Source: Methanofervidicoccus sp. A16
Lineage (GTDB): Archaea; AGJL01; Methanococci; Methanococcales; Methanococcaceae
Assembly: GCF_003351865.1 (NCBI RefSeq)
Contig: NZ_CP022242.1
Location: 992,001 to 1,056,000, forward strand
Direction of reading: 5' to 3'
DNA length: 64,000 nucleotides
Part shown: piece by piece, positions 48,196 through 55,350 of the stretch
Position numbering within the stretch: position 1 is the stretch's first letter
Layout of the letters: each line of letters begins with the position of its first letter
The notes under the pieces: model-generated
What the model was told of the DNA's origin: nothing
The model's database searches: none
The model's input: the letters and a program-made list of their open reading frames with translations, nothing else
Translations under genes and position numbers: made by a program

Positions 48196-48369
48196 GTTAT
48201 ACATTTACCTAATAAATAGTCTATATTTTTTCAATTCTATCCTTTTTTAGAATTTTTATTCCTATTATAGGCAATATTAAATTTATATAAAAATTAAAAA
48301 TAATAACTATTATAATAATAAAAATATAAAAAGTAAAAATGAATAGAATAAAAAATAACTACAAAAAGA

Positions 48370-48480
48370 GATAAAAACTTCTAAGAAGAAGGTTTAACAG
48401 AAACCTTGCCTGTTTTCTCCAGTACTCAGTGCAAACTAGAGGATAAGGGAATATTTTTTGCTTTCCTACCTGTATTTATT
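48370..48480 (+). repeat. Repeat family 2, copy near eL39/argS (plus orientation)
   Basis: The consensus-like parts here are GATAAAAACTTCTAAGAAG, GGTTTAACAGAAACCTTGCC, TTCTCCAGTACTCAGTGC, AGAGGATAAGGGA and TTTCCTACCTGTATTT. The reverse complement of 51185-51312 aligns along its whole length with many small differences. It lies in a 428-bp spacer between convergent genes and shows no ORF and no strong hairpin. Confidence 0.65.
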
Positions 48481-48623: not shown

Positions 48624-50354
48624 CTACATCTTCCCTGGGCACTCTATCCCTAACAACCTAAGGCCATTCTCTATAACTATCTTTGTAGATTCTACAACCT
48701 TCAACCTGGAGTACAGTATATCCTCATTTTCCTCCTTGAGTATTGGACAGTTCCCGTAGAAACTGTTAAACCTCTGGGCAACCTCTAACATATAGTGTGC
48801 AAGGGTTTGAGGTTTCAAAGACTCTCCAGACATCTCGAGGATCTTTGGGAACTTCAGAAGGGCTTTTATAAGTATCTTCTCCTGATCCTTCATCTCGTAG
48901 TTGAAGAGTTCCTTAGGATCCTTATCCTCTACCTTACCTATCTCCTTAGCATGCTCCAATATTCTACAGCATCTAGCATGGGCATACTGTATAACTGGAC
49001 ATCCCACCTTCTCAAAGTCCAAAGCCTCCTCCCATTTAAATACCATAGGTTTCTCTGGAGATACCCTTACTATGTTGTACCTAACTGCACCTACAGCGAT
49101 TTTATGGGATATATCTTTTATCTCCTCATCCCTGGCAATACCTCTCTTTTTAACCTCTCCAATAGCCCTCCTCTCAGCCTCCTCAAGGAGTTCGTCTAAA
49201 CTTACAAACCTTCCCCTCCTTGTACTCATGGATCCCTCCGGCAGAGATATGAACTCGTAGAATATCACCTTTGGAGTCTTAGAATTCAACAGTTTTAAGG
49301 AGGCATTTACCATCTCTGCGGTAAGTTTATGATCTGCACCTAAGACGTTTATACCTATATCACAGTTTGACATCTTGTCCAGATGGTAGGCTATATCCCT
49401 TGTGGAGTAGAGGGTAGTGCCGTCTAATCTCATCAATACAAGTTTCTTCTCAATTCCAAATTCTGATAGATCAAGTTTATATACATCTTCTTTTACTACT
49501 TTACCAGTCTCCATCAATCTTTTTATAACCTCCTTTACCATCCCGTTCCTTACGTACTCACTCTCCCATACAAATACGTCATGCTTAATATTAAGATTAT
49601 CTAAGGTCTCCCTAATACCCTCTAAGGCGTAATTTACTGCCCACTGGAATCTCTCTACTACTGGACTATCCTCCTTATTCTCCAAAGATCCCTCGTACTC
49701 CCTCATTATCCTTCCTATCTCATCCTCCAGTTGAGGATCCTCCTCTAAGAGTCTATTTGCCTTTACGTAGATCTCTCCAATGGCATGATCTGGTTTTTTA
49801 CTCTTATCTATCTCAAACCTCTCTAAACCGAAGACAACAACAGCCTCCTGCCTCCCCATGTCATTTACATAGTAATGAGTTTCTACATCATAACCGATAA
49901 ACTCTAGTATCCTCCTTAAACTGTCTCCTATTATGGCATTTCTACCATGGCCTATATGGAGGGGACCGTTGGGATTTGCAGAGGTGTGTTCAAGGATTAC
50001 CTTCTTATCTTTTTTCTTACCTCTACCGAAGTTCTCCCTCTCCCTAAGTATCTTACCTATACCATCCTTGGAATACTCCTTATAATCTAAAAAGAAGTTT
50101 ATATAACCGTTAACTGCCCTCACATCACTAACATAGGGAATACTTTCAGATTTTAACCTCTCTCCCAACTCCTCTGCAATAACCTTCGGAGGTTTTCTAA
50201 GTACCCTCGCCAACCTGAAGGATACATTCGTTGAATAATCCCCCAACTCCAAGGAAGGTGGCTCATCTAACTGTATATCTCCAACATCCTCCTCACATAT
50301 CTCCTGGATCTTTCTGTAGATAGCATCTTTTATAGTATTCTCTACCTCTATCAT
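48624..50354 (-). CDS. argS: Arginyl-tRNA synthetase
   Basis: The 576-residue class I synthetase has [18 protein letters not shown] (HIGH region), an N-terminal Add-1-type domain, the KMSKS equivalent [19 protein letters not shown], and a C-terminal DALR anticodon-binding domain ending [15 protein letters not shown]. The length is normal. It starts 4 bp after the hypB stop with GTGATACC as SD, so it is probably in one transcript with hypB. Confidence 0.97.
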
Positions 50355-50358
50355 GGTA

Positions 50359-51027
50359 TCACTTTAATGATCCCTCCTTACTCCTAACTATAAAATCAAC
50401 TACCTTATCCAACCCCTCGTTAGTCTTAAGGGATGTAAGTACTACCTCCATCTTATCGTTTATACTCTCAGCGTCCCTCTTCATCTTCAAGGGATCTACA
50501 CCTACAGCCTCTGCAACATCTATCTTATTTATAACAGTGAGATCTGCAGTTTTAAATATCATGGGATGTTTCTTAACTGTATCGTCTCCCTCTGTAACAC
50601 TTATTACAACTATTCTCTTATGGGCACCGAGATCGAAATCTGTAGGACATATTAAATTCCCCACATTCTCTATAAAGAGTATATCTAACTCCTCCAAGTT
50701 AAGATCCTCCAGAGCATGACTTACTAAATGAGCATCTAAGTGGCACTCCTTGCCAGTGTTCAAGGGAACAACCTCCACACCATATTTCTTAAACCTCTCT
50801 GCATCGTACTTGGCTATAACATCCCCTGCAATACATCCTATATTGTATCTGTCCTTTAATTTTTCAATTAACTTCTCTATAAGTAATGTCTTCCCACTAC
50901 CAATGGCACCCATGAAGTCAAAGGCGGTGACGTTATACTTATCTAAAAGTGCCCTGTTCTTATCTGCAAGTTTCTTATTGGCCTTTAAAAGATCTCTTTC
51001 AACGTCCAAAACACTTACAAAGTGCAT
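50359..51027 (-). CDS. hypB: Hydrogenase nickel-insertion GTPase HypB
   Basis: HypB delivers nickel to [NiFe]-hydrogenases with HypA. The 222 residues carry Walker [22 protein letters not shown] (metal-site Cys-His), [32 protein letters not shown] and [11 protein letters not shown]. It lacks the His-rich N-terminus of some bacterial HypB, as is usual in methanogens. I placed the start at the ATG at 51027, preceded by AGGTGAAGATT; the frame extends six codons upstream. argS follows 4 bp downstream. Confidence 0.95.
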
Positions 51028-51184
51028 AATCTTCACCTGTAGCATTTTATAAAATAATTTTTTATAATAATTATATTAAATAAACGAAACTTAATAAAAA
51101 ATTTTATAATAATTTTAGAGACAATTAAAGTTAAAAATAATATCTTAAATTGTTAATACATAAATAAACTGTTAAAATAGTAAT

Positions 51185-51312
51185 AATTAGGATAAAAGAA
51201 TGAAAACAGGTAGCAAAGTAAAATTTAGTCCTTGACTCTCGAACTACCCTGAGTACTGGAGAAACTTGACAGGATTTCTATTAAACCTTTTTTAAGAGTT
51301 TTTATCTCTTTA
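51185..51312 (-). repeat. Repeat family 2, copy near hypB/LX (minus orientation)
   Basis: Read on the plus strand it contains ACAGGTAGCAAAG, GAGTACTGGAGAAAC, GACAGGATTTCTATTAAACC and AAGAGTTTTTATCTC. Its reverse complement aligns with 48370-48480 over about 125 bp, so argS-hypB is framed by an inverted pair. The spacer (51028-51411) is otherwise AT-rich and must hold the hypB promoter in its left part. Confidence 0.65.
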
Positions 51313-53207: not shown

Positions 53208-53576
53208 GGGACATAAATTTTTTATTTTTCTCTTCAGTAGGAGATCGATAGGAGTATTAATTATAAATAAAAACTATGAATTTTACTGTTTTAAGTACTG
53301 AACAAAAAAAAACTATTATGTATTTTAGTCTAATAATAAAAATTAAAAAATTATTGAAAATAAAAAAGTTAATAAACAGTTGAAAAGGTAAATCTCGCCG
53401 TTATCTGGAATACTTTAAAAACTAACTTTATTTAGCCTTGGTAATTATTCAAAAAAGTTATTTAATATTATAATTTTTTATTTTTTATTCTTTTTTATAT
53501 CTTATATTTTACTTTTTTGATAAAAAATAGAAACAAGAGTTGTAAATTTTTGGTTTAATGATTTAAAATGTTAATG
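53208..53576. other. AT-rich spacer between cfbA and the fwuB SECIS
   Basis: This is 369 bp with no gene. A degenerate family-2 segment may lie near 53390-53430: on the minus strand TATTCCAGATAACGGCGAG resembles the 655-725 copy (TATTCCAGAGGATAACAACG). T-runs near 53480-53500 could end either convergent transcript. Confidence 0.4.
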
Positions 53577-53610
53577 ATTTGAAGGGTCCCAGATGGGTTC
53601 CCCTTCAAAT
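53577..53610 (-). promoter_or_regulatory. Archaeal SECIS element of fwuB (3'-UTR)
   Basis: On the minus strand the RNA folds as a 10-bp stem (AUUUGAAGGG with CCCUUCAAAU), an asymmetric loop with GAA on one side and a single A on the other, a 3-bp CCC/GGG stem and an AUCU tetraloop. This is the archaeal SECIS consensus exactly. It lies 47 bases after the fwuB stop, as expected for archaeal 3'-UTR SECIS elements, and directs selenocysteine insertion at UGA 54603-54605. Confidence 0.95.
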
Positions 53611-53657
53611 CCCCTAAATATCTCCGCAGGATGTAGGATACCCAATATTACCGGTTT

Positions 53658-54965
53658 TTATAACATTTCATTTATTTTCTTACTCATAATCTTGAAGACT
53701 TCTTCATCTGTAAGAACTCCCTCTGGAGGCTCTACAACCTTCTTCAGTTCCAATGGGACACCATCCATTCTGTATGCAATTCCACCAACTTCTACCCCTG
53801 TGAAGGCAGTTGGTATTATTATGTTAGACAGTTCAGTTGTAGGTGTTTGGTGTGGTTCTACACATATTACAGGTATCTTTGCTATATGCTCTACAGCCTT
53901 CTGTGGGAAGTGTGCTCCTGGATCTGATGCAATGTTCATCATTACGTCGACCTCTCCTCTAAGTAAGAGGTCAATGGTACTTGTCTCCCCTGGGTTGTAC
54001 CTTGGATAACCTCTACTGAAGTCCACTGCATAAGGATATCCTGTTAGCCAGGATATTACCTGGTTGAACCCATTTACGTTGTAGTGCCCTCTCATTGGCA
54101 TCAGTCCAAATTTGGTATAGGCGTTGAGATCCCTAATCAGACATATTGCGTTGTCTATAATTCTATGTTTACCTCTACTCATAGTTACTCCCATACCAAA
54201 GTACAACTGCCCAAACTGAGCCTTTTTACATGCCTCTACCACTTCATAGATGGTGTCCACTGGAATCCCTGCAACTTTATCTGCGTTTAATTCCATTCCT
54301 CTGAGCACTGCCCTCATGGCACTTATCAACTCGTAGTCCTTGTTGGGCTCCACCTGTAAGTGGAGATCTGCCAACTTTGTAGTGTCTGTCTTCCTTGGAT
54401 CTACTACTACAACAGTCCTATCTCTTCTTCCCCTCTCCCTGAAGAACCCTCTTGCAAATACAGAATATCTACCCATATGTCTTGGGTGGGCATGCATTGG
54501 GTTGCATCCCCAGAATATTACAAGATCGGCTCTGTTTTTAGCCTCTCCAAGGGTACAAACTGGGTATCCTACATCCTGCACAGCCAGTAGAGAAGGACCA
54601 TGTCAAACAGTTGCTGTGTTATCTACAATAGCCCCAATTTTCTCCCCTATTAATATTGCCTCACGCTGTGCCTCACAACTTATAGAGGAGAATCCATAGA
54701 ATACAGGAAGTTTTGACTCTACTAGCAATCTTGCAGATTCTTCAATTGCAGTGTCGTAATCTGTCTTTTTGAAGTCATCCTTCTTATTCTCTCTTATTAG
54801 AGGTTCTGTATATCTTACAGAGCCCTCAAAGTGCATGAATTTTGCATGACCTATCCTACAGGCGTTCCTTGTCCCAACAATGTGGCCGTCCTCTACCATG
54901 ATTTCAATATCGTCACAGAGGCAGCCACAGAAGGGACATACAACATTTTTTACTACCTCAACCAA
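53658..54965 (-). CDS. fwuB: Formylmethanofuran dehydrogenase subunit B, selenocysteine-containing (tungsten type)
   Basis: This is the catalytic subunit of the enzyme that reduces CO2 onto methanofuran, the first step of methanogenesis; it binds a tungsten-pterin centre and a 4Fe-4S cluster ([12 protein letters not shown]). An in-frame UGA at 54603-54605 interrupts the frame between NTATV and [12 protein letters not shown], precisely where family members have the metal-ligating Cys or Sec. A SECIS follows the stop, so this is one 435-residue selenoprotein (Sec about residue 121), not two genes or a pseudogene. The start is probably the TTG at 54965, preceded by GGTGATCCC; a GTG at 54974 lies within that SD. 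Later motifs: [34 protein letters not shown] and [15 protein letters not shown]. The other Fwd subunits are not nearby. Confidence 0.95.
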
Positions 54966-55350
54966 AGGGATCACCCCATTAATAGTAGATTCTCTACATT
55001 ACTTTATACTATCATTAATATTTATGTCTTTTTATTATGTTATTTTTATATAACTATTAACTTTTTTGAAATCTATTAGAAATTTTTATTTTTAGAAAAA
55101 TAAAGTATTTGTAGGTATAGATAAAGAGGATCTCAGTCACCTTTAGGGTAATATATTAATTATTAATTTTAACTAATTTTATCTCATGGTTAGAAATAAT
55201 ACCAGATTATAAAAAATATACCTAAATTATATATAACTTTTTTATACAATTTTAAATGTCATTACATGAATAAATGATATAATCAAACTATAAACTAAAA
55301 GAGGTTTATTCATTAATGTATATCAATGTTTAGAGTTTTGAGGGATATGA
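54966..55350. other. AT-rich divergent promoter region
   Basis: This is 385 bp between fwuB (minus) and the membrane-protein gene at 55351 (plus). No ORF or repeat was recognised. A TATATATAAC-type element near 55225-55235 could serve the plus-strand operon. Confidence 0.4.

Follow-up and report, generated by a model that had tools for sequence, protein, structure and literature searches.

A long-range mRNA helix that probably docks the 3'UTR SECIS of fwuB beside its UGA codon in Methanococcales, and a displaced, guide-bearing form that may act in trans

Selenocysteine-containing FwuB is an established selenoprotein of Methanococcales (PMC11097638), and both Sec-FwuB and its SECIS were already known (PMC11097638, PMC11881835); thus an fwuB gene followed by a canonical SECIS, taken alone, is a gene of a known kind. 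For archaea it is still unsettled how a distant SECIS reaches the UGA codon and what it is bound by (PMC11881835). The closest described arrangement is the 5'UTR SECIS of fdhA1 in Methanococcales, whose flanks are complementary to the ORF shortly past the UGA and are longer in thermophiles (Peiter et al. 2025, PMC11881835). Repositioning of the SECIS was proposed for these flanks, which comprise 7 and 10 bases in M. maripaludis (PMC11881835). In the open-licence literature, the idea of complementary flanks was found only for this fdhA1 element, in the same paper.

The fwuB locus described here lies in the window, a stretch of 64,000 nucleotides from Methanofervidicoccus sp. A16. Its SECIS, too, has a flank able to pair with ORF sequence that closely follows the UGA. 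However, the fdhA1 flanks lie in the 5'UTR on both sides of the element, whereas the fwuB SECIS lies in the 3'UTR and has a complementary segment of 22 bp on its 5' side only; because of this location and this single flank, we consider it a variant rather than a plain member of the complementary-flank type. Beyond fdhA1, the same pairing occurs in hdrA and, within one genus, in selD, and a displaced multi-guide form is found in Methanocaldococcus-type genomes. The features of the locus are as follows.

54969..54975, minus strand: probable Shine-Dalgarno sequence GGTGATC of fwuB, from sequence inspection; it backs the start at TTG 54965
53658..54965, minus strand: fwuB, formylmethanofuran dehydrogenase subunit B with selenocysteine, 435 aa from TTG 54965
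54603..54605, minus strand: in-frame UGA, the Sec codon of fwuB (Sec121; Sec124 from the GTG start)
54559..54580, minus strand: coding arm of the helix, +23..+44 after the UGA, TGCAGGATGTAGGATACCCAGT
53625..53646, minus strand: helix arm in the 3'UTR, ATTGGGTATCCTACATCCTGCG, which lies 13 nt 5' of the SECIS stem
53576..53611, minus strand: archaeal SECIS of fwuB, with an 11-bp basal stem, a GAA/A internal loop and a 3-bp GC apical stem (CCC/GGG)

The fwuB frame opens at GTG 54974 and ends at TAA 53660-53658, which gives 438 aa from the GTG. TTG 54965, implied as the start by the coordinates of the earlier note, is the better candidate, since the sequence at 54975-54969 resembles its Shine-Dalgarno and the homologues begin there. 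That note had joined the two ORFs on either side of the UGA into one full FwuB, with Sec at a metal-ligand position, and had expected automatic annotation to report two truncated products; all of this is borne out. The UGA at 54605-54603 is the sole internal stop of the frame, the orthologues examined have TGA or a Cys codon at exactly the same position, the similarity to FwdB is full-length with the UGA replacing a metal-ligand Cys codon of that family, and standard ORF calling splits the gene into pieces of 123 and 307 aa. The closest solved chain, and the best PDB match, is the methanogen Sec-FwuB 9sfi_Q (E 4.7e-228), which has X, a non-standard residue, at the Sec position; the window FwuB shares this site and is otherwise unremarkable as a protein. 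Thirty-four of the 36 genomes of the order Methanococcales contain a match. We conclude that fwuB is one selenoprotein gene, the only one in the window, and predict that FwuB is a Sec-containing protein.

The SECIS resembles the canonical archaeal 3'UTR element in its two stems, GAA/A asymmetric internal loop, GC clamps and position in the UTR of fwuB, and its fold is more stable than that of shuffled sequences (z -3.35). The loop, the CCC/GGG stem and the distance of 47 nt from the stop codon to the first stem base are as previously claimed; the basal stem is 11 bp rather than 10. The textbook model of such an element has no pairing with the coding region and leaves the distance to the UGA unconstrained, and in this the window SECIS differs. 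Rfam has no family for the window. A SECIS model built from fwuB matched essentially only fwuB SECIS elements, so other selenoprotein genes were located by protein family. The host genome has the Sec machinery that the note had predicted: tRNA-Sec (66 bits), SelB (396 bits), SepSecS (554 bits) and a Sec-type SelD, whose gene has its own UGA. With tRNA-Sec and SelB present and no second, Cys-type FwdB paralogue found in this genome, neither of the two observations that would have spoken against the selenoprotein was made; the single FwdB-type gene is of the Sec type, and Sec therefore appears to be obligatory for this step.

The long-range helix was absent from the earlier note and is the novel part of the finding in the window. 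It comprises 22 bp including flanking wobble pairs, with a 19-nt perfect core (54561-54579 with 53626-53644), and no other inverted repeat of the window, pure AT repeats aside, is as long; the maxima in ten shuffled windows were 13-17. When the 1051-nt piece of mRNA that runs from the UGA to the SECIS was folded without constraints, the helix had a pairing probability of 1.0, and of 0.99 with 80 C parameters. In an all-by-all test within the genome, the arms of fwuB and hdrA each paired strongly only with their own mRNA. A promoter upstream of the 3'UTR arm was also considered; the candidate, TTATAAAA, overlaps the fwuB stop and was ruled out because relatives lack it. Elsewhere in the window, two more inverted repeats of 16 and 15 nt link 48365-48429 with 51249-51311 in nested order, about 2.9 kb apart, and flank two minus-strand ORFs (48624-51045).

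Nearly every Sec-fwuB gene of Methanococcales has a helix of 9-26 bp at the same coding site, and the Cys paralogues have none there. Close relatives have 18-22 bp, genus g4 has 25-26 bp, two others have 14 bp, and the mesophile-type genus g2 and G009 have 9-11 bp; these last helices are singly near background, and their support comes from the shared position. In genus g5, of Methanocaldococcus type, a helix of 19-22 bp is accompanied by a second, nested one of 13-14 bp at +107..+120. Every strong fwuB arm (14 bp or more) abuts a SECIS. G030, an incomplete assembly, has a UGA-containing fwuB with no SECIS or helix on its contig. Of the pair cells in 19 haplotypes, 91.8% form; both sides have changed in 7 of 18 pairs, and position +30 displays all four Watson-Crick pairs. 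For these related sequences, in a register picked by the best helix, the covariation score was 0.225 vs 0.108 in shuffles, none of 500 shuffles scoring as high. When arms were permuted among genomes, the observed cognate pairing was reached in 0 of 100000 trials. The gene, its SECIS, the helix, and the conservation and covariation of the helix are thus all legible in the sequences themselves.

Several related loci deserve mention on their own account. The fwuB gene of G005 (L099), with Cys at the Sec codon, keeps a SECIS-like element and a 9-bp arm, and apparently represents a recent Sec-to-Cys change with a SECIS relic. G019 has two extra tandem fwu/fwd-type genes (L232, C1:1361500-1367000), one with a UGA and one without, with a SECIS-like element after each; the copy with the UGA also has a 16-bp helix of its own, at +30..+45. 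The loci L108, L116, L117 and L118 encode Sec-containing FwdB paralogues (42-44% identity), and no SECIS was seen in the flanks examined. Their UGA genes have a SECIS-like hairpin, TATTGGGGAACCAATCCTATGGACTCAATG, inside the frame about 87-120 nt past the UGA, in a conserved protein motif, and this is possibly an in-ORF archaeal SECIS.

Other selenoprotein genes show the same arrangement to varying degrees. The UGA of hdrA lies about 1.46 kb from its SECIS, and the gene has its own helix, of 21 bp at +26..+46 in the window's genome, 20-25 bp in g4 and 29 bp in some g5 genomes; we regard it as an independent recurrence of the fwuB arrangement. In both genes the coding arm begins 23-30 nt past the UGA. 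The published complementary flanks of fdhA1 were recovered for fdhA, with its 5'UTR SECIS, and served as a positive control of the method. In selD, where the distance between UGA and SECIS is similar to that in fwuB, a helix was found only in two g4 genomes, and in vhuD, tested in the same way, none was found; the UGA codons of vhuD lie 240-390 nt from the SECIS. Separately, at G034:C1:885783 (L301) the sequence CAGTGCTGGGCAGTAAGTT stands ahead of a selD-type SECIS and, as in g4, may form base pairs with the part of selD that follows the UGA. In hdrA 3'UTRs (e.g. L213:5085-5135, L246, L253), the SECIS base lies within flanks of the form (G)ATGA...CTGA(T), an arrangement similar to a box C/D kink-turn; the flanked short stem persists in G024, G034 and G035, where the GAA/A SECIS is gone, and this kink-turn-like element could bind L7Ae.

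In the Methanocaldococcus-type genomes (g5), three guide segments accompany the fwuB SECIS, two directed at fwuB and one at hdrA: the spacer that separates the two fwuB arms is invariant and complements hdrA at +7..+30, over 22-24 bp, in every g5 genome with hdrA read. The sequence ACACGTC, which follows the second fwuB arm and precedes the SECIS, is (nearly) invariant in 11 g5 loci, and no pairing partner was identified for it. Three g5 genomes have a UGA-containing fwuB with no SECIS behind it. In G034, a contig scanned in stretches, a fwuB-type SECIS with both arms lies at C1:315286, 447 kb from fwuB, and its neighbourhood contains no second fwuB copy. This cassette is intergenic, in a 185-nt gap between two opposite-strand genes and antisense to both neighbours, with a TATA-like sequence upstream, its own T-tract downstream and an intact SECIS (GAA/A). 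In a blind search of the whole 1.24-Mb contig on both strands with the 57-nt guide region, the longest exact complements were hdrA (23 nt) and fwuB (17 and 14 nt), all three just past the UGA codons of these genes; the next best was 12 nt, and shuffled guides mostly gave 11-13.

G024, a single contig of 1,328,194 bp, has the SECIS and both fwuB arms 3.9 kb beyond fwuB, at the end of a gene judged KsgA-like from its sequence; a convergent gene and an operon with its own start intervene. Joint changes of guide and target occur there at two positions of the hdrA guide and at one of the fwuB guides. Thus a SECIS with guide complementarity lies outside the transcription unit of its target clearly in G034 and, judged by gene order, in G024, whereas the window SECIS is in cis. 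No canonical SECIS of its own was found for hdrA in G024, G034 or G035, which is what a shared guide RNA would explain. The displaced multi-guide cassette, too, is a matter of sequence; its transcription as a separate RNA and its action in trans are what we infer from it.

Taken together, these data make it likely that the 3'UTR SECIS of fwuB is docked beside the UGA by the 22-bp mRNA helix, and that the module is movable, being a guide cassette in Methanocaldococcus-type genomes and a trans-acting guide SECIS RNA in G034 (probably also in G024). Coding bases 23-44 nt past the UGA would pair with the 3'UTR bases that directly precede the SECIS, and while the UGA is in the ribosomal A site the helix would remain unopened in front of the mRNA entry channel. 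The docked element would sit approximately where a bacterial SECIS sits, with codons not constrained inside a hairpin, and recruitment of SelB and Sec-tRNA would therefore be local despite the approximately 990 nt that separate the encoded hairpin from the UGA; once Sec is inserted, the ribosome would unwind the helix. As pairing and not covalent linkage would deliver the SECIS, the module could relocate and serve two genes. The cis helix of the window would then be the widespread form and the source of the mobile one. In G034 the separate RNA would be about 100 nt long, from near GGGGTGGGCG to the T-tract. That a Methanococcales SECIS acts in trans, as a small RNA with antisense guides that pairs with the hdrA and fwuB mRNAs past their UGA codons and directs Sec insertion, is in our judgement likely.

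The docking function that we infer has to be set against several observations. In M. maripaludis reporters, a SECIS lacking complementary flanks was still functional at 37 C, and the 5'UTR flanks reduced mRNA about threefold and gave no higher total activity, with a gain of about 2-fold after mRNA normalisation (PMC11881835). In addition, the restriction of the selD helix to g4, the short helices of the mesophile type and the G030 contig count against docking. The helix could be more important at high temperature, or when efficiency is reckoned per mRNA.

The helix might instead act chiefly as a downstream roadblock that pauses the ribosome at the UGA, like the stem-loops of eukaryotic Sec redefinition or readthrough, with the proximity of the SECIS incidental. 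The start of the coding arm 23-30 nt past the UGA in fwuB and hdrA suits such a stall. However, the partner strand of a roadblock need not carry a SECIS, whereas all strong fwuB arms abut one, and in G034 arms and SECIS have relocated together. As the main role of the helix this seems unlikely; pausing and SECIS docking can coexist.

For the cassettes of G024 and G034, another reading is an antisense regulator or a relic, fwuB and hdrA using the vhuD or vhuU SECIS on a polycistronic mRNA. We consider it quite unlikely, since the cassette retains an intact SECIS and exact guides, the matched double changes in the fwuB and hdrA guides of G024 are unexpected for a relic, and a pure antisense regulator would have no use for a SECIS. 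It draws on the clustering of hdrA, vhuD, vhuU and fwuB in G034, with the vhuD/vhuU SECIS between hdrA and fwuB: if this cluster is one mRNA, these elements could serve their neighbours, which tells against action in trans. Moreover, a 5'-located SECIS can function in archaea (PMC11881835).

The reporter data, in which a flank-free SECIS suffices at 37 C and flanks lower the mRNA level (PMC11881835), also agree with an ordinary cis SECIS whose complementary arm has no bearing on Sec insertion but acts in mRNA stability, RNase processing or 3'-end protection. This is very unlikely: the helix follows the SECIS and not the 3' end, flanking the 5'UTR SECIS of fdhA1; it lies directly past the UGA in fwuB, hdrA and fdhA; it is lost in Cys paralogues and travels with the SECIS when the SECIS leaves the gene. 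Finally, mis-assembly of G034 and G024 with arms that are chance complements is hardly credible, for although these are single assemblies, both displaced elements lie on single large contigs in differing contexts, the G034 cassette is antisense to both neighbours and has its own T-tract, and the blind guide search stands far above shuffles.

The docked SECIS of fwuB, as proposed here, may be compared with two further classes of RNA. Bacterial in-ORF SECIS elements (e.g. that of fdhF) likewise lie a short distance 3' of the UGA; they are part of the coding sequence, whereas the fwuB SECIS would be brought there by long-range pairing, leaving the codons free. Like the archaeal C/D sRNAs and antisense sRNAs, the displaced RNA would pick its targets by antisense guides, one RNA serving two mRNAs. 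The payload of those guide RNAs is modification, cleavage or repression; that of the displaced RNA, for which Rfam has no family, would be a SECIS that recodes a stop codon. We know of no precedent for a separate guide SECIS RNA. Thus, the docking helix of the 3'UTR is a new variant of the fdhA1 flanks, while a SECIS used in trans via guides would be new in kind.

A conserved docking helix would answer the question of geometry, explain the apparent lack of a distance constraint on the archaeal SECIS and predict the coding positions that are important. Should the displaced form act in trans, it would be a natural case of RNA-guided stop-codon recoding, useful for programming Sec insertion at chosen codons with the UTR of the mRNA itself untouched, and it would explain selenoprotein genes that have no identifiable SECIS.
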